31,505 nucleotides of DNA from a virus, in IMG/VR virus record IMGVR_UViG_3300022562_000360, positions 1-31,505 of that record; one strand, written 5' to 3'. The notes under the pieces were generated by a model. It was not told where the DNA came from, made no database searches, and saw only the letters and a list, made by a program, of their open reading frames with translations. The position numbers were made by a program, and so were the translations under genes. This document shows positions 4,173 through 29,781 of the stretch, in pieces. The first letter of the stretch is position 1. Each line of letters begins with the position of its first letter.

Positions 4173-4202
4173 TTGGCTACCTGTTTCTGGAGGACCCTGC
4201 CT

Positions 4203-6116
4203 GTGAGATCCTCTCGGCTTCACGTCGACATCGAAACCTTCTCGGAAGCTGATCTGGAATCTGTCGGGGCGTATGTCTACGCCAATCACCCCAGCACTGA
4301 GCTGCTGTGCGCCTGCTGGGCGATCGACGACGGACCGATCAAGACCATCCGCTATGGAGAGAGCATTGCTCCCTTGGTGCGAGACCTGAAGAAGGTCAGG
4401 GTGGTGGCGGCTCACAACGCCAGCTTCGAGCGGATTCTGCTGACTACCCTGTTCACCCAGATCGCGAAGCTGGAGCTGACGTGGGTCTGCACGGCCGCGA
4501 AAGCCGCCATGCACGCCCTTCCACGAAAGCTGGAGAAAGCAGCAGAGGAGCTGGCAACTGTCGAGCAGAAGGACATGGAGGGGCACAGGGTGATGCTCAA
4601 GCTGAGCAGTCCAAAGAAGCCCACGAAGAAGGACCCGCTCACGAGATACCTGCCAGCCACCCACCCTGCGGAATTCGATCGGCTGTACTCCTACTGCGGC
4701 CAGGACGTCAAGACAGAGCGAGCGATCGACGACGAGCTGCCGGACCTGCCCCAGCTCGAGCGAGAGATCTACTGGCTCGATCAGATCATCAATGACAGGG
4801 GAATCCGGTGCGACAGGGACCTGGTCAACCTGGTGCTGCAGGCGTGGGACCAGCACCTCAAGGTCATCAACGTCAAGTGTCAGAAGCTCTGCGGTCTCAA
4901 CGCCACTCAGGTAGGGGAGCTGACGAAGTACCTGGGGCTGACTGAGCTGACCAAGGCCTCGATCGAGGAGGCCCTCAGCCGCGAGGACTTGCCAAAGAAG
5001 CACCGCCGGATTCTTGAGCTGCGACAGGAAGCCAACAAGACGTCTGTTCGCAAGTTCGCTGCCATGAAGGCAGCCATGGGGTCTGCTGACCACCGACTCC
5101 GCGGGATGTTCCTCTACTTCGCGTCTATCACTGGGCGCTGGGGTGGCCGGATCGTGCAGCTCCACAACCTCCCGCGCAACACCGCCAAGGACTTCGACGA
5201 GGTAGTAGAGAAGATCGAGAGCGGGGAGATCAGCGGCGACCTGGCGCAGCAGCTGATCCGCCCGTCTCTGATCGCTGCCAAGAATCGTGAGCTGCTGGTT
5301 GGTGACTTCTCAGGGATTGAGTATCGAATCACCATGTGGCTAGTCAACTGCCTGAGAGCGCTGGAGGTCATCCGCTCTGGGAAGGATCTCTACGTCGTGA
5401 CCGCCATGGCAATCTACAAGGTCTCATACGAGAAGGTCGACGATGACAAGCGATTCACTGGCAAGCAAGCCGTCCTGGGGCTGGGATTCGGAATGGGGAT
5501 AGATCGCTTCATCGGGCAGTGCGCCTCGTACGGGGTCGAGATGGAGTATGAGCTAGCCAGCAGGACGGTGAAGGTGTACCGTGAGACCTACAAGGAAGTG
5601 GTCGATGGCTGGTATGAGCTGGAGCGTGCAGCGATCAACGCCATGCAGGGGAAGATGGATGGCAGGTACCACACCGCGTTCAACGGGAGAATCCGGTACT
5701 TCCGCCGCGGCAAGTTCCTGTACTGCCGCCTGCCCTCTGGCAGATTCATCGCATATCCCTTCCCCAAGCTGATCGACGACGAGACTCCCTGGGGCTCACC
5801 GATCAAGAAGCTGACCTACATCGGAATGGACAACATCACTCGCCAGCGGGGGAGAATCAGCACCTACGGCGGAAAGCTGTTCGAGAACGTGGTGCAGGGC
5901 ATTGCCCGCGATTTGCTTGCGCTCGCGATGCTTCGATCCGAGAAGAAGGGAATCCCAGTAGTCGCCCACGTGCATGACGAGATAGTTGCAGAAATTTTTC
6001 ACAAACAATTTACTGTGGGGGAGTTCGAGGACACAATGACAGAGGTCCCCGACTGGGCTGATGGCTTACCGGTAGGGGTCAAGGCCTTTTCCACACAGAG
6101 GTACACAAAGAGATGA
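4203..6116 (+). CDS. family A DNA polymerase with 3'-5' exonuclease
   Basis: The phage replicase, 637 residues. The N-terminal proofreading exonuclease shows DIET (Asp9, Glu11), AHNASFE (about 75-82) and YCGQD (about 168-172). The polymerase domain has motif A GDFSGIEYRI (about 367-376), motif B RFTGKQAVLGLGFG (about 417-430) and motif C HVHDE (about 588-592). There is no 5'-3' exonuclease domain, as usual for phage PolA. GTG 4203 is preceded by CTGGAGGA eight bases away, the same start signal as the DUF2800 gene; an upstream TTG at 4173 lies within the terminator tail and lacks a Shine-Dalgarno. Its stop overlaps the next gene as ATGA. If cytosine is modified in this phage, this enzyme must accept the altered dNTP. 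Confidence 0.95.
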   Translation: MRSSRLHVDIETFSEADLESVGAYVYANHPSTELLCACWAIDDGPIKTIRYGESIAPLVRDLKKVRVVAAHNASFERILLTTLFTQIAKLELTWVCTAAKAAMHALPRKLEKAAEELATVEQKDMEGHRVMLKLSSPKKPTKKDPLTRYLPATHPAEFDRLYSYCGQDVKTERAIDDELPDLPQLEREIYWLDQIINDRGIRCDRDLVNLVLQAWDQHLKVINVKCQKLCGLNATQVGELTKYLGLTELTKASIEEALSREDLPKKHRRILELRQEANKTSVRKFAAMKAAMGSADHRLRGMFLYFASITGRWGGRIVQLHNLPRNTAKDFDEVVEKIESGEISGDLAQQLIRPSLIAAKNRELLVGDFSGIEYRITMWLVNCLRALEVIRSGKDLYVVTAMAIYKVSYEKVDDDKRFTGKQAVLGLGFGMGIDRFIGQCASYGVEMEYELASRTVKVYRETYKEVVDGWYELERAAINAMQGKMDGRYHTAFNGRIRYFRRGKFLYCRLPSGRFIAYPFPKLIDDETPWGSPIKKLTYIGMDNITRQRGRISTYGGKLFENVVQGIARDLLALAMLRSEKKGIPVVAHVHDEIVAEIFHKQFTVGEFEDTMTEVPDWADGLPVGVKAFSTQRYTKR

Positions 6117-8214: not shown

Positions 8215-9084
8215 ATGATCATTCTCGAGGGACCTGACTGCGGCGGCAAGTCCACCCTGGCAGAGCTGTGGCCACTTCCAGAATCTAACAAGATTCACTT
8301 CAGCCACCAGGAAGACAAGCTGACGGCGTACAAGAAGTTCCTCAGCGAGCACCGCGGCAGGGACATGCTCCTCGATCGCTTCCACATCTCCGAGCAGGTG
8401 TACGGCCCGATTCTGAGGAACAGCAACGAGCTGCTCTACACCGGGCGGTTCCTCGAGCGAGAACTGCTGGCTGATGCTTCTTGCGTGGTGCTTTGCCTGC
8501 CTCCCTGGCCAATTGTCAGGTACCAGTGGCAGAAGCGAATCGACTCAGAGATGGTGAAGGACGTCGAGGTTATGAGAGCCATCTACGAGGCGTATCACGA
8601 GATCGAGACTGACCTGAAGGTGTTCCTGTTCGATTACACCAAGGATCCTCTGCCGCGCCTGGTAGACAAGGTCAACCGGTTCATGCACTGCGACAACAAG
8701 ATGCCCCACGGCTTTTTTGGGAGTCCCTTCGCCACTGTTCTCCTGGTAGGCGACGAGGTCAGCTCCCAGGAGCAGCACGGAGTTCCTTTCACCCGAGACC
8801 GGGTGGGCTGCTCTACCTGGCTGGCTAAGCAGCTTCACGATGCAGGCATTTCCGAGGGACACCTTGCTTGGGTGAACTCCACTCCGGATCTGACGAAGAA
8901 GCAGGTCGATTTCATCCAGGACCGGTTCCCCAACAAGATCGCCCTGGGCGTCACGGCAGAGTACAAGCTCCGCCAGCTAGGCTTCTCCATGTTCGAGACC
9001 GTCCAGCACCCACAGTACTGGAAGCGCTTCCTCTCGAAGGAACCGTACCCCTTGATCGCTAAACTGAAGAGGATGATCGGATGA
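8215..9084 (+). CDS. thymidylate kinase-like dNMP kinase fused to a UDG-like domain
   Basis: 289 residues in two parts. The N-terminal part (1-155) is a P-loop nucleotide kinase: GPDCGGKST (6-14), the DR-x-S-VYG motif (LLDRFHISEQVYG, 52-64) as in thymidylate and phage dNMP kinases, and a helical lid region. The C-terminal part (about 170-289) is not kinase. It has VGDE (178-181), GVPF (189-192), a helix GCSTWLAKQLHDAGI, VN (220-221), IALG (242-245) and HPQYWKRF (265-272), the order of landmarks of the uracil-DNA-glycosylase superfamily, but the classical catalytic motif is not obvious. The kinase probably phosphorylates a dNMP, perhaps a modified one; the second domain's role is unknown. ATG 8215 has AAGGAG eight bases upstream. 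Confidence 0.8.
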   Translation: MIILEGPDCGGKSTLAELWPLPESNKIHFSHQEDKLTAYKKFLSEHRGRDMLLDRFHISEQVYGPILRNSNELLYTGRFLERELLADASCVVLCLPPWPIVRYQWQKRIDSEMVKDVEVMRAIYEAYHEIETDLKVFLFDYTKDPLPRLVDKVNRFMHCDNKMPHGFFGSPFATVLLVGDEVSSQEQHGVPFTRDRVGCSTWLAKQLHDAGISEGHLAWVNSTPDLTKKQVDFIQDRFPNKIALGVTAEYKLRQLGFSMFETVQHPQYWKRFLSKEPYPLIAKLKRMIG

Positions 9085-9899
9085 TGACGCCAGAGAGATT
9101 GGTCGAGCTGATGAACCTGGCTGCTGCGGTGGTGGCTGGCGTGAGAGTGAATCTCCACACCAGCTTCGACGCGCAGAAGGAATACCCGCACCTGGCGAAG
9201 ATCTGGGAAACTAATCACCTGCTGTTCAATGGCGAGCTAACTGCTTCTGGCCGCATGTACGTGGACATGGAGCCCACTCTGAGCTACGAGCTTTCCACTC
9301 TCGCCAAGCAGGCGCACAGCGACAAGATTCTCTCGTCACCAGAAGAGTACCAGCGACTTCGCCAGGGGCTTAGCTTGATTGCTAAGAACATGGCTTACTA
9401 CATCTACAAGGGCTTGTACATCGACGACAGAGTACCTGGCGTGGTGATCGACGTCGGTGGTGGAAGCGGCGAGTGGATGAAGCAGTTCTGCCGGTATCAC
9501 CCGCGCTTTTCTGGCGTGCTGATCGACAGTCGCCCAACGACGCCGACCACGCGCATCTACGATGTCTTCGCCAACAACCAGTGGGTTTTCGACTTCCCGA
9601 ACCCTGGCGTTATCCTGCTGAACGAGGTGCTGCACCTGCGAGGCAAGATCGACAGGGTCAGGCTGTTCAAGGAGTGCTACCAGAACCTCAGCCCAGGTGG
9701 GTGGCTGCTCATTGGAGAGCGAAAACCAACGCCAGAGTTTGCTTGGCGCATGGCTGCGGCCACCAGCCAGGGGGAAGCCCTGTATGTAGAGCAGCTGATT
9801 GATGAGATCGAGGCAGAGCCTACTGACTTCGTCATTCAGTCAGGCTGGTCGCATTATTTCCTGATGTATCTCAAACCAACGATGGAGAAGGCCCGATGA
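9081..9899 (+). CDS. SAM-dependent methyltransferase, O-methyltransferase-like
   Basis: A 272-residue class I methyltransferase. After a helical N-terminal region (1-115), which resembles the lid/dimerisation part of small-molecule O-methyltransferases, comes motif I VVIDVGGGSGEW (121-132), a conserved acidic residue after strand 2 (LIDS, 147-150), a motif-IV-like VILLNEVLHL (177-186), and NLSPGGWLLIGE (203-214). The motif IV is not the NPPY/DPPY of DNA base N-methylases, so a small molecule, nucleotide or side-chain oxygen is a better guess than a base nitrogen. It starts with an ATGA overlap with the kinase and ends with one to the TS-like gene, so it is embedded in the nucleotide operon. 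A link to base hypermodification is inference. Confidence 0.75.
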   Translation: MMTPERLVELMNLAAAVVAGVRVNLHTSFDAQKEYPHLAKIWETNHLLFNGELTASGRMYVDMEPTLSYELSTLAKQAHSDKILSSPEEYQRLRQGLSLIAKNMAYYIYKGLYIDDRVPGVVIDVGGGSGEWMKQFCRYHPRFSGVLIDSRPTTPTTRIYDVFANNQWVFDFPNPGVILLNEVLHLRGKIDRVRLFKECYQNLSPGGWLLIGERKPTPEFAWRMAAATSQGEALYVEQLIDEIEAEPTDFVIQSGWSHYFLMYLKPTMEKAR

Positions 9900-10609
9900 T
9901 CAAGTCCCATGATTTTGATTACCTGTATCACAGCCACCTCGAGCACTTGCTGTATGCTCCTGGCATGGAGCAGTTCAACTACAGCTTCGAGCTGGAGAGA
10001 ATCGACCCCACCAAGCTGCCAGTGGTCAAGTCGAAGGCCCGCAAGTTCAACCTCGAGTATGCCAAGGCTTTCGCTGACTTCACTGTCGGTGGCGGCCCTG
10101 TCCCTGAGGCAGTGCTGAAGCACCGACCCGACGCCAAGGATTTCATCGAGGAGGTCGAGGGCAGGAATCCGGCGTACGGCCCCAGGATCACAAAGCAGTT
10201 CTGGGGCGTGGTGAACGAGCTGCAGGCGATTCCAGAATCTCGCCGAGCAACGATCATGATCCTGGATGAGGAGGATCAGAAGATCAGGCAGTGGAAGCGA
10301 GCAAGGCCAGCATCGAAGGTGGAGTACCCCTGCACCATGGCGCTGACTTTCTTCATCCGCCAGAGGCGGTTGAACCTTCACGCCTCCATGCGGTCGTCCA
10401 ACGCCTGCACCACCATCTGCTATGACGTCTTCAACTTCGCTGTCCTGCTGTGCGAGATGTCAGACCAGCTTGGGGAGATGCCTGGCTCCTTGTTCTGGAA
10501 CGCGGTGAACTCTCACATCGTTCCGAGAGAGGTGCAGCTGGCGCACAGCATCATGGCTGAGTATCGAGAGCGCCGGGCAAGCAAGTCTGCAGGGAGCATC
10601 ACCCTGTGA
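9896..10609 (+). CDS. thymidylate synthase/dCMP hydroxymethylase family protein
   Basis: 237 residues of the thymidylate synthase fold. From residue 90 it aligns without gaps to E. coli ThyA, even in numbering: Tyr94-Gly95, the nucleophile Cys146 (YPCTMALTF), Arg166-Ser167 and His207. The paired Arg of PESRR is at 116-117. Asp177 stands where thymidylate synthase has Asn177; T4 dCMP hydroxymethylase also has Asp there, and this residue selects cytosine over uracil. I infer a dCMP substrate. However, ThyA Glu58, Trp80, Asp169 and Tyr209 appear to be replaced (Ala, Ala, Asn, Val), so the later chemistry may differ from both known enzymes. It lies between a methyltransferase and a MazG-like gene with ATGA/GTGA overlaps. 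Confidence 0.8.
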   Translation: MIKSHDFDYLYHSHLEHLLYAPGMEQFNYSFELERIDPTKLPVVKSKARKFNLEYAKAFADFTVGGGPVPEAVLKHRPDAKDFIEEVEGRNPAYGPRITKQFWGVVNELQAIPESRRATIMILDEEDQKIRQWKRARPASKVEYPCTMALTFFIRQRRLNLHASMRSSNACTTICYDVFNFAVLLCEMSDQLGEMPGSLFWNAVNSHIVPREVQLAHSIMAEYRERRASKSAGSITL

Positions 10610-10992
10610 GAACCCTGATTCGCGACATCGAGGAGTTCAATCGGAAGTTCGGCTTGCCGGTGAACAGCCGAGAGCTGTTTGCGCACGCCTCCTGGCTCGA
10701 CTATCGGATGAAGTTCCTGCTCGAAGAGCTGGCTGAAACGATGCAGGCCGTGGAGGACAAGGACCTTCACGAGGTGCTCGATGGCCTGGTCGACATCATG
10801 TACGTCGCCGTCGGAACAGCGGTGAGCCTGGGTCTGCCGATCGAGGAGGCGTGGAACCGAGTCCACAAGGCCAATCTTGAGAAGGTTCGCGTGGAGGCCC
10901 CTGAGCAGTCCAAGCGGAAAAGCTCCTTCGACTTGGTCAAACCTCCAGGCTGGAAGCGGCCTGTGTTCGACGATCTCCTGGGGGAACCATGA
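10606..10992 (+). CDS. MazG-like nucleotide pyrophosphohydrolase
   Basis: 128 residues of the all-alpha NTP pyrophosphatase superfamily (MazG/PRA-PH type). The metal-binding signature is EELAE (Glu40, Glu41, Glu44) followed by Glu56, Asp59 and Asp63 in HEVLDGLVDIMY, and then the WNRVHKANLEK segment (83-93) typical of the family. Such phage enzymes cleave dNTPs to dNMP and pyrophosphate; the T4 enzyme with this role, gp56, destroys dCTP and belongs to the same superfamily. In this operon it could supply dCMP to the TS-like enzyme and keep normal dCTP out of DNA. The start is GTG 10606, overlapping the previous stop as GTGA; the Lys/Pro-rich tail after about residue 100 is outside the domain. 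Confidence 0.85.
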   Translation: MRTLIRDIEEFNRKFGLPVNSRELFAHASWLDYRMKFLLEELAETMQAVEDKDLHEVLDGLVDIMYVAVGTAVSLGLPIEEAWNRVHKANLEKVRVEAPEQSKRKSSFDLVKPPGWKRPVFDDLLGEP

Positions 10993-11462
10993 GGCCCGAC
11001 CGCCACAGCTACTTCTTGGACATCGCTCACGTGGTGTCGAAGCGATCCACCTGCGTTCGAAGAGCGGTGGGCTGCGTGCTGGTGGATGTCAACGGGAACA
11101 TCTCCGCGACTGGCTACAACGGGGTGCCCCGAGGTCAGGCTCACTGCAACGAGGGAAACCCCTGCCCAGGATCTGAGGCGCCAGCTGGATCAGGTCTGGA
11201 CGAGTGCTACGCCATTCACGCCGAGCAGAATGCTCTGCTCCAGTGCCGGGATGTCAACAGTCTCCTTGCCATCTATTGCACCGCCAGCCCCTGCATCCAC
11301 TGCATGAAGATGCTGCTGAACACTTCAGCCAGGCTGGTGGTGTACCGAGAACCCTATGCCCACCAGGGGGCTCTGGAGCTGTGGGTGAGAAGCGGGAGAC
11401 AGTCTCTGCTCATCCCGCAGGGGATGTCTGTGACCACACTGAGAGGAGGAGTAAGCGCATGA
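10989..11462 (+). CDS. deoxycytidylate (dCMP) deaminase
   Basis: 157 residues of the zinc-dependent cytidine/dCMP deaminase family. Zinc ligands and catalytic Glu are clear: His77-Ala-Glu79 in IHAEQNALLQC and Cys102-x2-Cys105 in SPCIHCMKMLLN. The TGYNGVPRG segment (41-49) and the Cys-rich insert around 53-73 are typical of dCMP deaminases, where the insert holds a second zinc or allosteric site. It converts dCMP to dUMP and so feeds thymidine synthesis. T4 also carries this gene beside a dCMP-hydroxymethylase, so its presence does not exclude a modified-cytosine pathway. It overlaps the MazG gene as ATGA and the next gene the same way. Confidence 0.93.
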   Translation: MRPDRHSYFLDIAHVVSKRSTCVRRAVGCVLVDVNGNISATGYNGVPRGQAHCNEGNPCPGSEAPAGSGLDECYAIHAEQNALLQCRDVNSLLAIYCTASPCIHCMKMLLNTSARLVVYREPYAHQGALELWVRSGRQSLLIPQGMSVTTLRGGVSA

Positions 11463-20176: not shown

Positions 20177-20679
20177 TTTCCCTCCTTAGCGATTTTCTCG
20201 ATCTGCTTCCGCAAGGTGTCAGCCAGTCGCTGCTGCATGGCATCGATCTGGGATTCGAAAGCCGGTTCCAGCCAGGGCTTCTTGGGATATGTAGACTTCC
20301 CGAACTCTGTCCACCTGCTATAAAACCCGTCGAGCGTGGGGCCGATCAGAACGACCACGGTGTTGCCGCTTCTCGACACCATTGCCTTCCTTCGAAGGCT
20401 GCTCTTCAAGAACCCAGGAGCACGGTAGCGCCCCTTCCAGCCTCTGACAGGGTACGGATCAACCATCCGCCTGGTGCCGTTGTCAGACCTGGTCTCTGAA
20501 TACTGGAAAGAACCCACTGGAGCAGCGGCTTGAACAGCTCGAAGGGCTGGCAGCGCAGCGGACATGGCAGAAGATCGAAGGATCTTTCCCCCGACAGCGC
20601 GACCCAGCTTCGAGAGCTTGGCGGAAAGCTCCGCTACTCCCTTCAGCTGGTCAGTTATCTGCGCGCCAGTGTCGATCAT
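20173..20679 (-). CDS. HK97 gp10-like head-tail joining protein
   Basis: 168 residues: QITDQLKGVAELSAKLSKLGRAVGGKILRSSAMSAALPALRAVQAAAPVGS at the start and FYSRWTEFGKSTYPKKPWLEPAFESQIDAMQQRLADTLRKQIEKIAKEG at the end, both typical of the HK97-gp10 family (family name known from similar sequences). These proteins act in joining the tail to the head, a neck/tail completion role. The start is ATG 20679, which overlaps the head closure stop as ATGA; the longer frame to 20715 is not supported. Confidence 0.85.
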   Translation of the reverse strand: MIDTGAQITDQLKGVAELSAKLSKLGRAVGGKILRSSAMSAALPALRAVQAAAPVGSFQYSETRSDNGTRRMVDPYPVRGWKGRYRAPGFLKSSLRRKAMVSRSGNTVVVLIGPTLDGFYSRWTEFGKSTYPKKPWLEPAFESQIDAMQQRLADTLRKQIEKIAKEGK

Positions 20680-21008
20680 TGCGTCTGCAGTTCCTCGATG
20701 CACATCAGGAGCCACTCCTTGCCGCGCTCCTCGACATTGATCACAGACCGGATGGAGAAGTACCGATCGCCATACTTCACCCGATCTCTCGGGCCCAAGG
20801 TGACGTCCTTCTTCGCTCGCATTCCGATCTCGTGAGTGATGTTCGCCTTCTCCCCGGAAGCAGTGAAGTACCGTTGTCCTCTGATCGGCTCAATCGACGC
20901 CCAGGCTGGTGCGATGTCTTCCCAGCTGTTGGTAACCTGTCCAACACCATCTTGGGTTGTCACCTGCCTCTGCAGCACGATCGACTTGGTCAGCTTCCAG
21001 GCTTTCAT
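20676..21008 (-). CDS. head closure (head-tail adaptor) protein
   Basis: 110 residues: KSIVLQRQVTTQDGVGQVTNSWEDIAPAWASIEPIRGQRYFTASGEKANITHEIGMRAKKDVTLGPRDRVKYGDRYFSIRSVINVEERGKEWLLMCIE. This is the head-tail adaptor/HCP family (SPP1 gp16, HK97 gp7 type), a small beta-barrel with the 'R...E....' pattern around residues 55-80. It seals the portal after packaging. It is separated from the connector gene (24645-24938) by six non-structural genes, although these two are normally adjacent. Confidence 0.88.
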   Translation of the reverse strand: MKAWKLTKSIVLQRQVTTQDGVGQVTNSWEDIAPAWASIEPIRGQRYFTASGEKANITHEIGMRAKKDVTLGPRDRVKYGDRYFSIRSVINVEERGKEWLLMCIEELQTQ

Positions 21009-21739
21009 AGTGCCTCAAACAGGTGGGCTATTGGCTCTCCCGCCTCGATTTCCTCGTGATGCCACTGGGTCCACGCCAGCCAGTGAGCCCAGCTCTCTCG
21101 GCTATCAGCATCGACCCCGTATGCCATGGCGCCCTCGTCGTGAACCTCGGTCGGTCGACCCTCGATCAGACATTGAACGCCAAATGACGAGTTGAGGACA
21201 TAGAAGGCCGAGTCTTCCATGGTCCGCTTCTCGGGCAACCCTGTGGGATTGTGCCCCGCCGGGTGTGGCCTGAAGTGGGTAGGGGCGAGTTTATTCCCGA
21301 GAACGTAGGCATACCAGTCCTCAATGGTTCTCCAGTGGGGGCTGTATGGTTCCGTCTGGCCACACAGGACCACGCTGGAGAAGTTTAGCTGTTGAGGCCA
21401 CAGTTCGATCCCCATCGCCTGCCAGCGGGCGTCGTCGGACCACGGGGGGACCCTGTGGTCACCTCGTCGGCCGTGCCCATTCCACACGAGAGAAACCCAC
21501 TGGTTGGTGTCCCCGACCGAGCACCTGTCGACCAGGAGGTACTCCCCCGTGGCCTCGATGCCGCGCCACAGCGATGTGCCGAGCAGGATCGGGAACCCCT
21601 CATCTAACCGAGCTGGGTGGGAGGTCAGAAGCGATGAGATGCCGAGAGACTTAAGCCCCATAGACATCTTGGCAGCAAATGGCAAGTGCCAGCCAATATC
21701 GGAAGAGCAGTGGATTACCGCCAGTGGTCTTGAACCCAT
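21005..21739 (-). CDS. GT-B-like protein resembling KpsC/KpsS-type transferases
   Basis: 244 residues. The C-terminal half has the landmark order of capsule Kdo-transferase-like GT-B proteins: FRPHP (about 157-161), VLNSSFGVQCLIEGRPTEV (about 181-199), DEGAMAY and then WAHWLAWTQWHHEEIEAGEPIAHL near the end. The N-terminal half (AVIHCSSDIGWHLPFAAKMSMGLKSLGI) is also like the first domain of a glycosyltransferase, and the middle WNGHGRRG stretch is distinctive. I infer a transferase using a nucleotide-activated sugar; donor and acceptor are unknown. It is the last gene of the six-gene cassette and ends with an ATGA overlap with the head closure gene. Confidence 0.55.
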   Translation of the reverse strand: MGSRPLAVIHCSSDIGWHLPFAAKMSMGLKSLGISSLLTSHPARLDEGFPILLGTSLWRGIEATGEYLLVDRCSVGDTNQWVSLVWNGHGRRGDHRVPPWSDDARWQAMGIELWPQQLNFSSVVLCGQTEPYSPHWRTIEDWYAYVLGNKLAPTHFRPHPAGHNPTGLPEKRTMEDSAFYVLNSSFGVQCLIEGRPTEVHDEGAMAYGVDADSRESWAHWLAWTQWHHEEIEAGEPIAHLFEAL

Positions 21740-22347
21740 GAGTCTTTCACCTGATGTGGTTTTGGCTCGCCGTGGAACACGCAGATCGCACCACGGTCCT
21801 TTCCCTCGAGAACGTGGTACTTGTACGAGGTGATCAGATCAGCTGGAAGCAGACCGATCCTGTGAGGCCAGAGGAGGTGGGACAGCACGTTCTGATCGCC
21901 ATGCATGGTGGTCAGCATGCTCTCGTCTAAGCCACTTAGATCTACGGTGTCATAGAAGATCATCACCGAGCTGTTGCAGCAGCCGTCGCCACCCAGGTAG
22001 CGCTTGAACTGCTCGTCAAGTCCCTTCTTGGGGTTCACGATCGAGTAGCTGAAATCGTCCCGCATCCACAGCCGGCCAGGATCGAGAAAAGCAGCTCTGA
22101 CCACGGCGTCGATGTTGCGGGTGATGACCACGTCCAGGTCGAGGTACATGGTCCAGCCCCTGAATGACTTCTGCACCAGGTCAAGCTTTGCCCACCAGCC
22201 CTCTCGCTCGGGCAAGTCCTGCTCAGTGAGACAGATGAACTTGTGCGGAATGGTGAGATTGCGGTCAACCATGTTCCGAAGCCGGCTCACGTACAGCTCG
22301 CCCTGCTTCAGGTAGTTACGGTGATTGAGGCAGACGACGTTCAGCAT
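21715..22347 (-). CDS. GT-A glycosyltransferase, family 8-like
   Basis: 210 residues. The strand-loop MYLDLDVVITRNID (67-80) carries the metal-binding DxD (Asp70, Asp72) of GT-A enzymes, preceded by GWWAKLDLVQKSF, as in GT8-type transferases. Later NSSVMIFYDTVDLSGLDES and GDQNVLSHLL (about 150-159) match the acceptor-side and Gln-Asn motifs of that group, and VFHGEPKPHQV (about 190-200) resembles the HxxG/KPW end motif. It should transfer a sugar from a nucleotide sugar. It starts two bases after the preceding stop and overlaps the GT-B-like gene by 25 bases. Confidence 0.75.
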   Translation of the reverse strand: MLNVVCLNHRNYLKQGELYVSRLRNMVDRNLTIPHKFICLTEQDLPEREGWWAKLDLVQKSFRGWTMYLDLDVVITRNIDAVVRAAFLDPGRLWMRDDFSYSIVNPKKGLDEQFKRYLGGDGCCNSSVMIFYDTVDLSGLDESMLTTMHGDQNVLSHLLWPHRIGLLPADLITSYKYHVLEGKDRGAICVFHGEPKPHQVKDSWVQDHWR

Positions 22348-22349
22348 GA

Positions 22350-22901
22350 TCAGCGTCTGTTGAAGTGAATGGCAGCGGTGGGCATGTCAAACTCGTAGGA
22401 AGCGACCCTCCGCAGGCGGGCGAACCACATTCTCCGCGGGGCTTCCCCGTGCAGGTACAGCCGCTCGACGATGAATCCATTCTTCTCTGCCAGCTCGACG
22501 TAGAACTCCCTCGAGGGATACCACTCGCCATGCCAGGTCCAGTCACCGAACATGGGCGTGGTGCTCACCAGCACTGAGCCAGTGTGGCAGGCATTCACCA
22601 TGTTCTCCCACACTTCCTTCTGCCCGTTCACGTGCTCAGAAGTCCCGATGTTGGAAACCATGTCGAAGGTGCCCAGATCAAGAGGCTTCCGCAGGTCTAG
22701 CTTCAGCGCTCCGTCCTCGCCATTCCAGTCGACTGAGATGTGAGAGTATCCCAGTGAGGTGAAGAACTTCTTGTACGTGTGCGTCCCGTTCTTCTTGTTG
22801 CCAAGCTCCAGCATGGTCGTACCAATCAGAGGCTGGTACAGGTCCCACTCGCCAGAGCGATTGTGGAAAGGTCCTAGATCTCCCAAAAGGCTAGCTTGCA
22901 T
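22350..22901 (-). CDS. class I SAM-dependent methyltransferase-like protein
   Basis: 183 residues. Motif I is altered: LIGTTMLELGNKKNG (about 25-39) instead of a glycine-rich loop. It is followed by HISVDWNGEDGALKLDLRKPLDLGTFDMVSNIGTSEHVNG (about 53-92), which has the motif II acidic residue, the motif III Asp-Leu and the IGTSEHV motif IV of small class I methyltransferases. The C-terminal part (GFIVERLYLHGEAPRRMWF) fits the last strand. SAM binding is probable but not certain because of the loop. It overlaps the next methyltransferase-like gene by 28 bases. Confidence 0.6.
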   Translation of the reverse strand: MQASLLGDLGPFHNRSGEWDLYQPLIGTTMLELGNKKNGTHTYKKFFTSLGYSHISVDWNGEDGALKLDLRKPLDLGTFDMVSNIGTSEHVNGQKEVWENMVNACHTGSVLVSTTPMFGDWTWHGEWYPSREFYVELAEKNGFIVERLYLHGEAPRRMWFARLRRVASYEFDMPTAAIHFNRR

Positions 22902-23389
22902 CCTAGTGCTCCACCATCATCGATCGCTTCCTTATATGGTCCAAGGTACTTTCGAAGGTCAAGCCGAGCGAATTCCCGGTGATCCCTCTCCTCGTTCGCG
23001 TCGAACTGCGTGGCAATCAGATACCACGCACTTCGGCGAAACAAGTCCAGTGCCATTCCGATGCGGGTGTCATCGAGATGGTTCAAGGTGTGCCTGCACA
23101 GAATCGCGCAGGCCTGCGGCATTGCCTGGGTCGTGATGTCGAGCTTGGTTACTGACGGATCTCGGGGAATCAGGTCGAAAGCGTTGTACTGGATCTCCTT
23201 CTTCCACTGAATCTTCCTTATCCACACCAGGTCGCCAGCACCTGCGTCGTTCAAGCTGGTGATGTCGTGGCGCTTCACGAGGTGAGGGAGCCACTCCCTT
23301 ACCTTGGAAGTGTTCTCGAGAGTGGAGCCGATGCCACAGACTGTGAAAGGCTTGCCACCTCTCCAGCCGTTCTTCATCCGCTCCATCAT
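22874..23389 (-). CDS. methyltransferase-like protein (putative class I)
   Basis: About 171 residues. TSLNDAGAGDLVWIRKI gives a DAGAGD loop like motif I (DxGxGx), then YNAFDLIPRDPSVTKLDITTQ gives motif II/III with an Asp-x-x-x-Asp arrangement, and CAILCRHTLNHLDD the motif IV position. The last part, WYLIATQFDANEERDH, may be motif V/VI. The start is taken at 23389 because TGAGGAAGAG lies directly before it; ATG 23407 is an alternative without a Shine-Dalgarno. With 22350-22901 it forms a pair of adjacent, divergent methyltransferase-like genes in the cassette. Substrate unknown. Confidence 0.6.
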   Translation of the reverse strand: MMERMKNGWRGGKPFTVCGIGSTLENTSKVREWLPHLVKRHDITSLNDAGAGDLVWIRKIQWKKEIQYNAFDLIPRDPSVTKLDITTQAMPQACAILCRHTLNHLDDTRIGMALDLFRRSAWYLIATQFDANEERDHREFARLDLRKYLGPYKEAIDDGGALGCKLAFWEI

Positions 23390-23396
23390 CTCTTCC

Positions 23397-24032
23397 TCAG
23401 AGAGCATCGATTGGGACGTATCCAAGGACCGGCTCCAGAGCACTCCCGGGAGTGCAGTTGATCAGCTCGACTAGACCTTGCTGCTGCACCAGATCGTACA
23501 GCTTCACGAGGTGATGGTGCACCCCGTCCTTTACCGCCACGCTCGGCCAGTGCTGCAGCTCCTTGGGGTACTCTCCTGTCGGGAGCAGCAGGGTCGAGTG
23601 GCGTGGCGTGGATCCTGGGTAGCGGGCCCTGCCGTTATAGTCTGTCGAGTAGTGCAAGTCGTAACCTAAAAGCACAATCCGACTAGCACCCTTCTTGTGG
23701 GCCATGCTGACCAGGGAGAATCCACTGCCGTGGCCGTGGTGGATGACGTTCGACTCCTCGCACAGGCCTAAGCCATCCCGCTCTGCGATCCAGTTCAAGC
23801 GATAGGTATTGGCCGCTTCTGCATTGGTAGTCCACTTCTCGAATGGCAGCTTGCTGACTTCTGCCCAATAGGTTTCCCACCAGTTCAGGTTGCAGGCGTA
23901 CAGCAGTTCCAGGTCAGGAGCTACCCGGTAGACGTTGTTGCAACCGAAGAGCCTGAAGCCCTTATTCCTAGCTGACTGGATCTGTTCCAGTGAGAGCGAG
24001 GGCCCGGTCGCTATGCAAGCGATGGTGCTCAA
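23397..24032 (-). CDS. GPSL-motif (MptE/DUF115-like) Rossmann protein, copy 2
   Basis: 211 residues. It begins MSTIACIATGPSLS, a strand followed by the GPSLS loop found in the MptE-like (DUF115) group and in some sialyltransferase-like proteins. Later SNVIHHGHGSGFSLVSMAHKKGASRIVLLGYDLH (about 94-127) and VELINCTPGSAL (about 187-198) match the conserved positions of the same group. In phages such proteins are common in structural regions but their activity has not been settled; a nucleotide-binding transferase is the usual guess. It is about the same length as its neighbour 23968-24648 and shares the same landmarks, so the two are tandem paralogues. The start is TTG with GAGGAGG directly upstream. 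Confidence 0.7.
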   Translation of the reverse strand: MSTIACIATGPSLSLEQIQSARNKGFRLFGCNNVYRVAPDLELLYACNLNWWETYWAEVSKLPFEKWTTNAEAANTYRLNWIAERDGLGLCEESNVIHHGHGSGFSLVSMAHKKGASRIVLLGYDLHYSTDYNGRARYPGSTPRHSTLLLPTGEYPKELQHWPSVAVKDGVHHHLVKLYDLVQQQGLVELINCTPGSALEPVLGYVPIDAL

Positions 24033-24648
24033 GCGCCTCCTCGAATGTCATGACTGGCCAGCAAGTAAGCAGCGAGCCAGGAGTGGCATTAATGATCTGG
24101 ATGTGAGGGGACAGCAACTGAGCCGCCCGATTGAAGTGCTTTAGGAAAGCCTCGTAGTTGCTGCGATTCTCAAGCGGTGCAGGGTGATCTCCGAAGAAGT
24201 GCACCTTTCCACCTACGGGCTGCATGTCGAATCCAACCAGGATGATCTGAGTGCAGCCAAGCAGGATAGCCATGTTGACTGCCTGAAATCCGGAATTGTC
24301 CCCGTAGTGAATCAGCGAGGGATTGGTGCTGAAACCGATCCGAGCATCGCCCGACACCAGGTGCAGCCCGTACTCCTCCGCCAGCTTCAGCTTGTTGTTG
24401 TCCCCCTCGTCGTGAGTAGACCAGCGCTCCCCCTTGAACTGCGGGACTCCCTTGTGGTACTTCCACCAGGTATCATTGCAGCCGTAAAGGACATCAGCAT
24501 CAGGGAGCAGCTTGTAGGAATCCTGGACCGCCAGCACTGGCCAGTCACTAGTCTTGACCAGATCAACTACCTTTGACAGGGAGGGACCAGGAGCCGCTAC
24601 GATGCACTTAGCCCACCTGAAGGACAGGGTTTCTAAGTGCGGGGTCAT
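23968..24648 (-). CDS. GPSL-motif (MptE/DUF115-like) Rossmann protein, copy 1
   Basis: 226 residues, paralogue of the next gene. Shared landmarks: IVAAPGPSLSKVV (16-28), DADVLYGCNDTWW (50-62), NPSLIHYGDNSGFQAVNMAILLGCTQIILVGFDMQ (about 109-143), HFFGDHP (about 149-155) and IQIINATPGSLL (about 183-194). The Trp-Trp, Gly-Phe-Asp-Met-Gln and FFGDHP features are the same as in phage proteins of this family from other hosts, which I know only as unassigned. It starts with an ATGA overlap to the connector gene, so it was added directly behind the structural gene. Its last 65 bases overlap the TTG start of copy 2. Confidence 0.75.
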   Translation of the reverse strand: MTPHLETLSFRWAKCIVAAPGPSLSKVVDLVKTSDWPVLAVQDSYKLLPDADVLYGCNDTWWKYHKGVPQFKGERWSTHDEGDNNKLKLAEEYGLHLVSGDARIGFSTNPSLIHYGDNSGFQAVNMAILLGCTQIILVGFDMQPVGGKVHFFGDHPAPLENRSNYEAFLKHFNRAAQLLSPHIQIINATPGSLLTCWPVMTFEEALEHHRLHSDRALALTGTDPVS

Positions 24649-24938
24649 GCAAGCGCTGGGTCTCGGTGCCGCATCAGCAGACTTCTCACCGCCTCCGAGA
24701 AGGGGTCCTGGTCTGCTCGGTCGTACATGTTCTCCGCTACGAGAAGGATCGCGGCCTCGATGTCGGCAGGCAGCGTGAGCGGACTTCCAGTCTTGAGCCC
24801 ATCTTCGTTAACCGCCTTGCAGTAGCTCACCACCGCAGCGATCGCGGCCCCACCGATCCGCTCGACTCTCACGTCGTCGGTGCTGTCGTCGACCCGGAGG
24901 TGATCCTTAAAGGTAGCGAGCGGTATCAGCACTGCCAT
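24645..24938 (-). CDS. head-tail connector protein (gp6/gp15-like)
   Basis: 97 residues: AVLIPLATFKDHLRVDDSTDDVRVERIGGAAIAAVVSYC… and LPADIEAAILLVAENMYDRADQDPFSEAVRSLLMRHRDPALA. This is the small all-helical connector family (HK97 gp6, SPP1 gp15) that forms the ring between portal and head closure protein; the 'L..HLRVD...DD' start and the 'AILLLVA..Y..R' helix are diagnostic. ATG 24938 has AGAGGG close upstream, and that Shine-Dalgarno is the last unit of the 10-bp repeat array (24941-25060). Confidence 0.9.
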   Translation of the reverse strand: MAVLIPLATFKDHLRVDDSTDDVRVERIGGAAIAAVVSYCKAVNEDGLKTGSPLTLPADIEAAILLVAENMYDRADQDPFSEAVRSLLMRHRDPALA

Positions 24939-25067: not shown

Positions 25068-25107
25068 ATGGCAGGAAGCAGACCCAGTGGCTACCATTTC
25101 CTGCCAT
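25068..25107 (-). terminator. hairpin at the end of the collagen gene
   Basis: ATGGCAGGAA (25068-25077) pairs perfectly with TTCCTGCCAT (25098-25107) and encloses the stop codon of the collagen-like gene (25093-25091). There is no U-run, so it may stabilise the mRNA 3' end or slow transcription rather than end it. Downstream genes of the operon are still needed. Confidence 0.4.
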
Positions 25108-26080
25108 CAGGTCCCATTTGCGTCAGGTCTCTGCCATTTCGTCCTGCTGCACCTGCAGGGCCAGCCTTGCCCCGCTCGCCGTCCTTACCGTCTCGACCCT
25201 TCTTCACACTCAACCGCCACTGATCAGTGGAACCTGGAAGCACGCTGCTGCTTGCGTCCATGTCCTGCTGAGCAATCCAGAACGAGCCACCGTAGGTGAC
25301 CCCGTCTCCCTTCTGGTAGGATCTGGATGCCTTGAACACCCCGCAGTCGAGCACTGAGGGAACCGAAAACTCGGCTTCCTTGGTGAAGCCACTCGACATG
25401 GTGACGATCATGCTGAAATTGCGGTCAGTCAGCTGCTTGAATTCGATTGACTGGAGGCCATCCACCAGGCACTCCCAGCCATCAAGGCCGCTGGTTTTCC
25501 GGATCGACCGCCACAGCCCACCGTTGTGAGAGGCGAACGTCCCTCGAGGGTAGCTCTTCTCTGGGTCGATCGCCGACAGGACGTCAATAGACAGAGCGTC
25601 CTTCCCGTCTAACCCATCCCTGCCATCGCGACCATCCCGGCCTGTTTCTCCCTTCTCGCCAGGAGGACCCTGCTCTCCTTGCTTGCCGGTAGCACCTGCA
25701 ACGCCTGCAACACCTGCAACACCAGGTTCGCCTTTCTCGCCGCGGTCCCCTTTCTCGCCGCGGTCCCCTTTCTCGCCAGGAATACCTTGCTGGCCAGGTG
25801 GGCCCTGCTCACCAGGAATACCTTGCTGGCCGGGTTCTCCCTTTTCACCAGGTTCGCCAGCAGCACCAGCAGGACCGACAGGACCTTCAGGTCCAGGGAC
25901 ACCCTGCTCACCAGGTGCTCCCTTCTCACCAGGAATACCTTGCTGGCCAGGTGGACCGCAAGGAACTTCAGCAAATCTCTGGTCCAGCCGGAGTTCCAGC
26001 TGCGAGATCGCGCTTCCTACGTATCCCTTGACAGCTTCGATGACCTGGTCAGCGAGCAGCTTAAGCGTTTGCGACTTCAT
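25091..26080 (-). CDS. collagen-like fibre protein with carbohydrate-binding-like domain
   Basis: 329 residues. Residues 1-41 form a helical/coiled-coil N-terminus. From Gly42 to about 161 there are 40 uninterrupted Gly-X-Y triplets, rich in GPPGQQ, GEK and GDR, which should make a stable triple helix. Residues about 165-290 are a beta-rich domain; the part around [28 protein letters not shown] and STDQWRL resembles small chitin/cellulose-binding modules (CBM5/12 type). A second run of eight Gly-X-Y triplets ends the protein. It lies between portal and connector genes, where phages place head fibres or decoration proteins. It may bind host surface glycans or particles. ATG 26080 overlaps the portal end by 20 bases. 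Confidence 0.85.
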
Positions 26081-27792: not shown

Positions 27793-29214
27793 TCAGACCG
27801 TGTACTTGATGCCCGTGAGATACTGAGCTGCCGCAGACCGGCGCTTCGCCCAGTGGATGTACCGCTCGGCGCGGATCGCGATCGAGTTCGTCTGGAACAT
27901 GCTGACCACCGCGCTTTCCACGCTGGTCTGCGGCGAACCCGAACCTGCCGAGTACATCGACGGAGCCGTGTCCATCTCGAGGGATGCCTCACGGCTGATG
28001 TCGATCGACACGCCACCGTCATCCGCAAGCCAGACGTCCGAGGCGTTCACCAGGATCAGGATATCCCGGGCAATCGTCGGCGAACCAGCTGCCACGTCGG
28101 GGACGTGCTCCGACACGATCACTGGCAAGCCGATGAATCGGCCACCCGTCATCGAGATTTCGGGGAACTCTTGCTGACCGAGCGCGTTCCGCATCAGCGA
28201 AAGCGTCAGAGCCAGAGTCGCAGGCATGATCCACACGCCGGTGCTGAGGGAGATGTTGGCGCTGATGAAGTTCGTCATCAGAGCTTTCACGTCCGTCCGC
28301 ACTGCGTCTGCGTCGGTGCCTCCCGTCGAGGAAACCGGCGAAGCGGTGTTCGTGATCGACGCCGGCGAAACGCCCGACACAGCCGCCTTCGTCGGGGAAA
28401 CGAAGTCGATGTCCATGCGCTCGATCAGCGCCGCTGCGAGCGAATCCCGCACCAGAGCTTCTGCCGACGGGTTCGAGAAGCGGAGCAGCTCTTCCGTGAT
28501 CACCGCGATGTTCGCCACCTTGGTGTACGGGAACGTGGTCCGCTCGTAGCCGAACTTCGTCAGCGGCTTGGCAGCGCCTTCACCGACCCAGTAGCCCGAC
28601 CCGCCGACCGTTTGGCCAGGAATCGTGACGTTGAATGGCACCGACCGCAGGGCAGGAATCCCGTTCTGGCCGAACTTGCCGACGATCGTCGCTGGGCGGA
28701 GGTACTCCACGAAATCGCCGACGAACTGGTTGTCCGCCTGCGCCAGGGGAGCTGCCCACGTGACATGCTGGGCGGTGCCTGCGGCGACCTGCGCCTTGAT
28801 GTAGTTCTGGATCCGGTGCTCTTCCGGATACACGTTCTTGGCGATCTCGTGCGCCTGCATCAGGTTCCCCTTCGCAGCCGCCAGACACATGGCGTAGCGA
28901 GCGAACTCGATGCCAGGCGGGAGGTTGCGGCGAACCGTGATCGGGGCAGCGGTCGGAACCACTCGGCCATTGCCGTCTTCCGCGCGAGCGATGACTGGCG
29001 TGGCCTTCGTGGCTTGGAACCGCTCGAGGCTGCGAAGTCGCACCAGGTGGGCATCCACCTCCTTGACTTCGGATTCGAGGGTATCGTACTCCTCGGTTTC
29101 CTCTGCGTCCAGGGTCCTGCCCTCTTCTGCCGCTTTGGCCATGAGGGCTTCCATTCGCTCCGAGGAAGCCAGGCGCTTCGCTTCGAAAGCTGCAATCTGA
29201 TCTGCGATCTTCAT
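27793..29214 (-). CDS. possible internally initiated major capsid protein, 473 aa
   Basis: Within the fusion gene, Met190 is encoded by ATG at 29214-29212. CGGAG (from about 29225 to 29221) lies six bases before it, a good Shine-Dalgarno. Translation here would give MKIADQIAAFEAKRL…, the usual start of an HK97 scaffold-capsid protein (delta domain coiled coil, then capsid fold), without the protease. Known HK97-type phages need many capsids per protease, so such an internal start would solve the ratio problem. Whether it is used cannot be seen from sequence. Confidence 0.5.
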   Translation of the reverse strand: MKIADQIAAFEAKRLASSERMEALMAKAAEEGRTLDAEETEEYDTLESEVKEVDAHLVRLRSLERFQATKATPVIARAEDGNGRVVPTAAPITVRRNLPPGIEFARYAMCLAAAKGNLMQAHEIAKNVYPEEHRIQNYIKAQVAAGTAQHVTWAAPLAQADNQFVGDFVEYLRPATIVGKFGQNGIPALRSVPFNVTIPGQTVGGSGYWVGEGAAKPLTKFGYERTTFPYTKVANIAVITEELLRFSNPSAEALVRDSLAAALIERMDIDFVSPTKAAVSGVSPASITNTASPVSSTGGTDADAVRTDVKALMTNFISANISLSTGVWIMPATLALTLSLMRNALGQQEFPEISMTGGRFIGLPVIVSEHVPDVAAGSPTIARDILILVNASDVWLADDGGVSIDISREASLEMDTAPSMYSAGSGSPQTSVESAVVSMFQTNSIAIRAERYIHWAKRRSAAAQYLTGIKYTV

Positions 29215-29781
29215 GTCTTTCTCCGTAACTTTGGGTTTGATTGCCGAAGCGCCGGCTAGGTGAACGACTCGCTTGCGCACCAGACCAGACGCGGCCAGCG
29301 CTTGCTCGTCGAAGTTCTTGATGGATTGGATCGTTGCCTCCGCATTCGCGGGGATGGTGACTGCTGACAGCTCGTGCCAGGCCCACTTCAGAAAGTGGAT
29401 GCCACCTTTCGAATTCTCGATGAAGTTGTACTCGAGGGCTTGAAACCCGATCGACAGGCCTTTCACCAGGCCAGACTTCAGGCTCTGCCAAGCTTCGTCG
29501 AGCCTGTCCTTCAGCTTGCCAGGTTCGTCGATCTTCACCAGCCTGGCTTTCACCTCGATGCCCTCGCTGGTGACCTTTGCAGAGTACACCTCGCCGATGG
29601 GTTCTGCCGATCGATGCTGCCACAGCAGCGGAATCGGCAGCTTGAACTGGGCGCCCTTCGGCTCTACCACGTCCCCCATGCGATCGGTGGTCGGGGTGGT
29701 GGCAATCCCGGTGAGTTCCCGCTTGTCGGCATCGAAAGACTTGACTGACAGGATGCTGTAGGCACGCTGAATCTTTTTCAT
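27793..29781 (-). CDS. prohead protease-major capsid fusion protein
   Basis: 662 residues joining two normally separate HK97-type proteins. The N-terminal 165 residues are the prohead protease: LLWQHRSAEPIGEV (His56), GLVKGLSIGFQALE (Ser110) and AWHELSAVTIPANAEA (Glu137), the expected triad. After a linker comes a scaffold-like coiled coil (about 190-265, EAKRLASSERMEALMAKAAEEGRTLDAEE…), then the HK97-fold capsid (about 290-662; LRPATIVGKFGQNGIPALRSVPFNVTIPG, KLVANIAVITEELLRFS-like segment, RSAAAQYLTGIKYTV end). The protease may cut itself and the scaffold out after assembly. ATG 29781 has AGGAGG upstream. An internal start at ATG 29214 (next entry) could make capsid without protease. Confidence 0.9.
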   Translation of the reverse strand: MKKIQRAYSILSVKSFDADKRELTGIATTPTTDRMGDVVEPKGAQFKLPIPLLWQHRSAEPIGEVYSAKVTSEGIEVKARLVKIDEPGKLKDRLDEAWQSLKSGLVKGLSIGFQALEYNFIENSKGGIHFLKWAWHELSAVTIPANAEATIQSIKNFDEQALAASGLVRKRVVHLAGASAIKPKVTEKDMKIADQIAAFEAKRLASSERMEALMAKAAEEGRTLDAEETEEYDTLESEVKEVDAHLVRLRSLERFQATKATPVIARAEDGNGRVVPTAAPITVRRNLPPGIEFARYAMCLAAAKGNLMQAHEIAKNVYPEEHRIQNYIKAQVAAGTAQHVTWAAPLAQADNQFVGDFVEYLRPATIVGKFGQNGIPALRSVPFNVTIPGQTVGGSGYWVGEGAAKPLTKFGYERTTFPYTKVANIAVITEELLRFSNPSAEALVRDSLAAALIERMDIDFVSPTKAAVSGVSPASITNTASPVSSTGGTDADAVRTDVKALMTNFISANISLSTGVWIMPATLALTLSLMRNALGQQEFPEISMTGGRFIGLPVIVSEHVPDVAAGSPTIARDILILVNASDVWLADDGGVSIDISREASLEMDTAPSMYSAGSGSPQTSVESAVVSMFQTNSIAIRAERYIHWAKRRSAAAQYLTGIKYTV

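Follow-up and report, generated by a model that had tools for sequence, protein, structure and literature searches.

Which base does a phage put into its DNA when it carries, near the end of its early gene block, five overlapping genes for nucleotide enzymes? The question is raised by the IMG/VR virus record IMGVR_UViG_3300022562_000360, a linear record of 31,505 bases from a siphovirus fragment that was analyzed over its whole length (hereafter, the window). All five open reading frames (ORFs) of this cassette lie on the + strand and their four junctions are 4-base stop/start overlaps (ATGA, ATGA, GTGA and ATGA, in order). A sequence-only reading of the locus had assigned each gene to a family and proposed that together they replace cytosine. 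The ORFs, their overlaps and profile searches bore out the family labels, as listed here:

8215-9084, + strand: nucleoside-monophosphate kinase of the thymidylate-kinase/YorR fold (about residues 1-157) fused to a uracil-DNA glycosylase (UDG) family-4/UdgX-like domain (about residues 165-289), from phrog_761 and AlphaFold; proposed kinase of modified deoxycytidine monophosphate (dCMP).
9081-9899, + strand: S-adenosylmethionine (SAM)-dependent methyltransferase, probably of the small-molecule O-methyltransferase type (Methyltransf_23 4.5e-8, Methyltransf_2 2.6e-4); putative 5-O-methyltransferase of 5-hydroxy-dCMP.
9896-10609, + strand: thymidylate synthase (TS)-superfamily enzyme (Thymidylat_synt 3.8e-10) with Cys146 and Asp177 kept, Glu58 changed to Phe (window residue 59) and Asp169 changed to Asn; proposed 5-hydroxy-dCMP synthase.
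10606-10992, + strand: MazG/PRA-PH all-alpha nucleoside triphosphate pyrophosphohydrolase (PF01503 4.3e-15; phrog_671 3.5e-27; DR2231 match); putative dCTPase.
10989-11462, + strand: dCMP deaminase (PF00383 6.5e-20; phrog_174 1.1e-41; solved dCMP deaminases 4e-17).

It is very likely that the five genes constitute a cassette that modifies cytosine at the nucleotide level. Cys146 and Asp177 of the TS-like enzyme align with Cys146 and Asn177 of E. coli TS, so that the Asp typical of dCMP hydroxymethylases, already recognized in the sequence-only reading, is indeed in place. Asp177 together with a changed residue 147 is the mark of cytosine-specific TS (PMC8670742, PMC5175136), and in the MetaGPA study it marks the TS of cytosine-modified contigs, with PRA-PH and dCMP deaminase travelling along (PMC8670742). 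The MetaGPA/Xp15 cassette for 5-carbamoyloxymethylcytosine resembles the window in having TS-Asp177, PRA-PH/MazG, a kinase and dCMP deaminase together; it differs in that the Xp15 TS has Glu58 and Asp169, and the window has no carbamoyltransferase. In the window the metal-site motif of the MazG-type protein (EELAE...EVLDGLVD) and the zinc motifs of the deaminase (HAE and PCIHC, that is PCxxC) are intact.

Relatives of the kinase-UDG fusion were found in at least 363 IMG/VR stretches, 80 of which were kept for locus analysis. A TS gene adjoins the kinase in nearly all of these loci, and MazG and dCMP deaminase accompany the pair in about 50. Asp177 is present in all 82 readable TS genes of other loci, nearly all of them with the fusion; it is not exclusive to the fusion, as phages with a plain kinase can carry an Asp177 TS too. 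As a negative control, M6-type loci were examined (thymidine hypermodification, with Asn177 in the TS of Pseudomonas phage M6 itself); none of the 11 gave a kinase-UDG or a MazG match. Closest in gene content are Stenotrophomonas phage AXL3 and Pseudoxanthomonas phage PW916, which carry in one operon a kinase-UDG fusion (about 31-35% identical), MazG, TS-Asp177, dCMP deaminase and an adjacent methyltransferase; they are unlike the window in their TS (Glu58/Asp169, hydroxymethylase-like), in the unrelated family of their methyltransferase and in gene order. The uncultured phage MW202621 has nearly the same gene set in one operon, here too with a methyltransferase other than that of the window, and DSL-LC01 has kinase-UDG, TS and deaminase. 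The synteny conserved in AXL3, PW916 and MW202621 rules out a chance grouping of genes. It also contradicts the earlier statement that the set is without precedent among known phage systems, as do the more than 360 IMG/VR relatives of the fusion: apart from the methyltransferase family, the cassette is not unique.

For one of these phages the DNA itself has been characterized. Of 37 restriction enzymes, 35 failed to cut AXL3 DNA; the exceptions were TasI and Tru1I, whose sites, AATT and TTAA, contain only A and T (PMC7504290). DNA fully substituted with 5-hydroxymethyluracil is refractory to only about 8% of enzymes, whereas DNA with 5-hydroxymethylcytosine, glucosyl-hydroxymethylcytosine or 5-methylcytosine resists 82-94% (PMC7653180). 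The pattern of AXL3, which is evidence on that phage rather than on the window phage, fits a modification of cytosine by the cassette. Together with the conserved Asp177, it lends support to cytosine replacement at the nucleotide level as first proposed.

Asp177 by itself is compatible with either hydroxymethylation or hydroxylation. A tree of 30 TS-fold proteins places the window enzyme, with support 100/99, in a clade with those of RB69, Serratia phage 92A1, Acj9, PAU and the Pootjesviridae, while T4 gp42 (on a long branch), AXL3, Xp15 and the uracil-type enzymes lie outside; its exact neighbour (PAU) is uncertain, both branches being long. The annotation label 'T4 gp42-like' for this branch was rejected, its members proving to be RB69-type once T4 gp42 and RB69 had been added. 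The combination Phe58/Asn169/Asp177 is common to the window, RB69, 92A1, the whole clade and, by alignment, Thanatos, Phe58 being present in the window enzyme and throughout the 13 examined members of the clade, counting Thanatos. In every other protein examined (among them T4 gp42, AXL3, Xp15, M6, Det7 and E. coli TS) these positions are instead Glu58/Asp169. Glu58/60 is described as the residue that activates methylene-tetrahydrofolate (methylene-THF) and as invariably kept in TS and in CMP- and dCMP-hydroxymethylases, and the C-terminal tail of TS is needed for its reductive step (PMC6400193). This tail counts 31 residues after His207 in the window enzyme versus 58 in E. coli TS. The substrate-side residues, on the other hand, are kept (Cys146, the phosphate-site arginines, Arg166, Ser167, Asp177 and His207). 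The simplest reading is that the enzyme would still bind and activate dCMP but no longer take the folate carbon.

What is known of the clade points the same way. Mosigvirus phages (RB69, NP) are reported to have arabinose linked directly to C5 of cytosine through oxygen; the precursor is 5-hydroxy-dCMP, supplied by a member of the TS superfamily that is not the hydroxymethylase (PMC13390438). Shewanella phage Thanatos is reported to have a pentose O-linked directly to cytosine (PMC12838424), and PMC13216743 cites an arabinosylated cheese phage, which we infer to be 92A1, a phage from washed-rind cheese. The best solved relative of the window enzyme (PDB 9iqc/9iqu) is near-identical to RB69 ORF048c. 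This RB69/Mosigvirus synthase shares with the window the clade, the F58/N169/D177 signature, the short tail and a thymidylate-kinase-like gene in the synthase region; unlike the window, RB69 has a U32-family gene and sugar genes alongside, where the window has the methyltransferase and the kinase-UDG fusion. We therefore consider that the product of the window enzyme is quite probably 5-hydroxy- rather than 5-hydroxymethyl-dCMP. The hydroxymethylcytosine of T4, with which the sequence-only reading compared the pathway, is not supported as the product, since the enzyme is without the Glu58/Asp169 pair and groups with the 5-hydroxy-dCMP synthases. Among kinase-UDG loci the F/N/D enzyme was found in the window only, the 82 others being E/D/D. 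Within the clade, Sphingomonas phage PAU (L002:4671-10977) encodes its F58/N169/D177 TS among dTDP-sugar genes (4,6-dehydratase, 3,5-epimerase and glucose-1-phosphate thymidylyltransferase), an arrangement that would be compatible with a deoxysugar attached to 5-hydroxycytosine.

What, then, does the methyltransferase do? Its nearest solved relatives are the small aromatic O-methyltransferases CalO1, DnrK and MfnG (9e-6 to 2e-7), and its PF00891 score is 20.9, under the cut-off of 22.3. Orthology with the AXL3 methyltransferase was considered and rejected (BLAST E 0.007, partial). The only other family member found is on the IMG/VR contig L011, between the kinase-UDG and dCMP deaminase genes, and directly upstream of the L011 kinase lies a U32-family gene (PF01136 7e-14; L011:4898-6004). 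A related U32 gene stands beside the RB69 synthase (RB69 ORF050c; L121:8493-9662), and another adjoins the F/N/D synthase in the uncultured phage loci L112/L113 (L112:6724-7794); in 92A1, too, a U32 gene lies next to the synthase-type TS gene, and U32 genes occur in 218 phage records. Among the U32 matches listed there is no Acinetobacter phage, and a nearby U32 gene is perhaps not defining for the RB69-type synthase. The prephenate-dependent tRNA hydroxylase TrhP belongs to the U32 family, as does RlhA, which makes 5-hydroxycytidine in rRNA. Phage U32 proteins are annotated 'peptidase'; their relatives being RNA and quinone hydroxylases, they may take part in 5-hydroxylation. One could suppose that in L011 the U32 protein stands in for the synthase, but the contig ends 244 bases after the deaminase gene and a TS may lie beyond.

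Both known places of this methyltransferase family, the window and L011, thus carry a marker of 5-hydroxylation. This co-occurrence, together with the similarity to aryl O-methyltransferases, suggests O-methylation of the 5-hydroxyl, and we tentatively propose such a cap, with a methoxy product, as one possible role of the enzyme. The literature searched yielded no paper on 5-methoxycytosine as a DNA base.

On balance, it seems likely that the cassette replaces cytosine before replication via 5-hydroxy-dCMP, perhaps methoxy-capped. Gene arrangement, clade membership and residues are what the data show; the catalytic steps inferred from them would run as follows. The MazG-type enzyme would convert dCTP to dCMP, and the deaminase would, by its family function, turn spare dCMP into deoxyuridine monophosphate (dUMP). 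The TS-like enzyme would then convert dCMP to 5-hydroxy-dCMP via Cys146/Asp177, with no carbon added, as its clade and signature suggest. The O-methyltransferase, encoded between kinase and synthase, would most likely form 5-methoxy-dCMP, although this is the least certain step and the product could differ. The kinase-UDG fusion would phosphorylate the modified dCMP toward the deoxynucleoside triphosphate (dNTP), and the phage DNA would then carry a 5-oxygenated cytosine. The order first suggested, from dCTP to dCMP, then the change at C5 and then the kinase, is retained in this scheme. A more specific form of it, possible but doubtful, is a genome with 5-methoxycytosine for cytosine, made by the synthase, a dedicated O-methyltransferase and then kinase-UDG; the UDG-like domain might detect or clear wrong pyrimidine nucleotides, whether unmodified or deaminated.

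Several points weigh against a 5-hydroxy-dCMP pathway with a methoxy cap. The TS-like enzyme is only 26-39% identical to the members of its clade, and the 5-hydroxy activity of that clade rests on few phages, plus a preprint for the enzyme itself. The AlphaFold model of the methyltransferase has a predicted local distance difference test (pLDDT) score of 42, and beyond the SAM core the protein has only weak homology. No U32 gene lies within the 31.5 kb window, though RB69-type phages have one; the window being a fragment, further modification genes may be missing.

The absence of a U32 gene would be in keeping with an unlikely but better surviving alternative, that the TS-like protein is a dCMP hydroxymethylase as in T4 and that the DNA holds 5-hydroxymethylcytosine or a derivative such as 5-methoxymethylcytosine. 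Asp177 and Thr147 are as in T4 gp42, a profile search matches the CMP 5-hydroxymethylase MilA (3e-27) better than T4 gp42 (6.5e-11), and AXL3 and the other kinase-UDG loci have a TS of the hydroxymethylase type (E58/D169). The T4 pathway also resembles the window in using Asp177 (T4 Asp179) for cytosine and in its dCTPase-like, dNMP kinase and dCMP deaminase functions. However, T4 gp42 sits on another branch of the tree and has retained Glu60 and the equivalent of Asp169, whereas in the window and its whole clade the Glu58 that activates methylene-THF is Phe and Asp169 is Asn, and the clade contains 5-hydroxycytosine phages. No glucosyltransferase lies beside the window cassette.

A less probable version of 5-hydroxylation has the base glycosylated as in RB69, the sugar coming from late-operon or unsequenced glycosyltransferases and the methyltransferase acting elsewhere, for example on the sugar or another metabolite. 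The synthase clade is shared with arabinosylated phages, and at window positions 21005-24648 there are glycosyltransferase-like, methyltransferase-like and two MptE/sialyltransferase-like genes, placed among head-tail genes after a collagen-like protein. Unlike in RB69 and PAU, however, no sugar-nucleotide genes lie beside the cassette, and a homologue of one of the late-operon genes is found at the head-tail connector genes of Pseudomonas phages phi1 and D14C. This setting points to virion glycosylation: the late-operon genes more likely decorate the virion than the DNA, by analogy with those phages. On the same ground the late glycosyltransferases were rejected as part of the cassette, contrary to the earlier suggestion that they could finish the base. 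The insert as a whole comprises six glycosyltransferase/methyltransferase/MptE-like genes (window 20676-24938) inside the head-tail connector genes, and the adjoining collagen-like protein (25091-26080) has a carbohydrate-binding module.

Finally, ordinary thymidylate supply or thymidine hypermodification, in which the TS-like enzyme acts on dUMP to give deoxythymidine monophosphate or 5-hydroxymethyl-dUMP as in SPO1/M6, is very improbable and was rejected for want of Asn177: the deaminase does make dUMP, and the authors on AXL3 (PMC7504290) and PW916 interpret the same genes as serving thymidylate synthesis, but the window has Asp177 where M6 and Det7 have Asn177 and Asn147, its tail is short for the reductive step, none of the 11 M6-type loci has the fusion, and the resistance of AXL3 DNA to restriction follows G/C rather than T.

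The first gene of the 5-hydroxy-dCMP cassette, as modelled, is a true kinase-UDG fusion. Its kinase half matches a PHROG thymidylate kinase (phrog_761, 8e-10), and its AlphaFold model, built on 54 relatives, has a mean pLDDT of 94.7. In structure searches the N-terminal half of the model matches thymidylate kinases (YorR at 7.6e-7, vaccinia TMPK) and the C-terminal half matches UdgX (2.4e-4) and Thermus family-4 UDG (3.9e-4). Across the 54 relatives the kinase P-loop Gly11-Lys12 and Asp54-Arg55 are invariant; in the UDG-like half Pro191-Phe192, Asn221 and His265-Pro266 are near-invariant and the first UDG motif is variable. The pocket therefore seems kept, although the data do not allow a claim of glycosylase activity. 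Bacillus phage G gp315 (UniProt G3MA56) is of similar size and matches the model structurally over its whole length. Scans of genome contigs for the fusion and for the window methyltransferase, in which few patterns were used, found no relatives, which would fit virulent phages, weakly. Two further proteins recur in kinase-UDG loci: a C5-cytosine DNA-methylase-like protein (PF00145 2e-13) near the cassette in 16 of them (for example L049:4681-5847), and, in 33, a conserved protein of some 298 aa that matches no Pfam family (for example L072:1330-2226); in L072 it lies directly upstream of the kinase, and it may be a transferase for the modified base.

Around the cassette, profile searches identified as + strand early genes an exonuclease, a single-stranded DNA-binding protein, a VRR nuclease, a SNF2-type helicase and the following polymerase, which by its context would have to use the modified dNTP:

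4173-6116, + strand: family A DNA polymerase (PF00476 5.5e-20; phrog_17 2.2e-93).

The late genes on the - strand include the terminase large subunit, 37-38% related to HK97-type phages, and the tape measure protein. By our own reading of the sequence, a 662 aa ORF (27793-29781) is an apparent fusion of prohead protease and major capsid protein.

These results bear on phages well beyond the window. Hundreds of uncultured phages encode the kinase-UDG fusion, which goes with an Asp177 TS wherever this was readable and is an unstudied marker of cytosine-modified phages. Synthases of 5-hydroxy-dCMP and dCMP hydroxymethylases appear to be distinguishable by the 58/169/177 signature, which lets many phage genes annotated as TS or dCMP hydroxymethylase be re-predicted, in the Pootjesviridae, the Acinetobacter and Klebsiella T4-like phages and PAU. 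A cassette that couples a hydroxy-type synthase to an O-methyltransferase would give 5-methoxycytosine, a small cap that is not a sugar.

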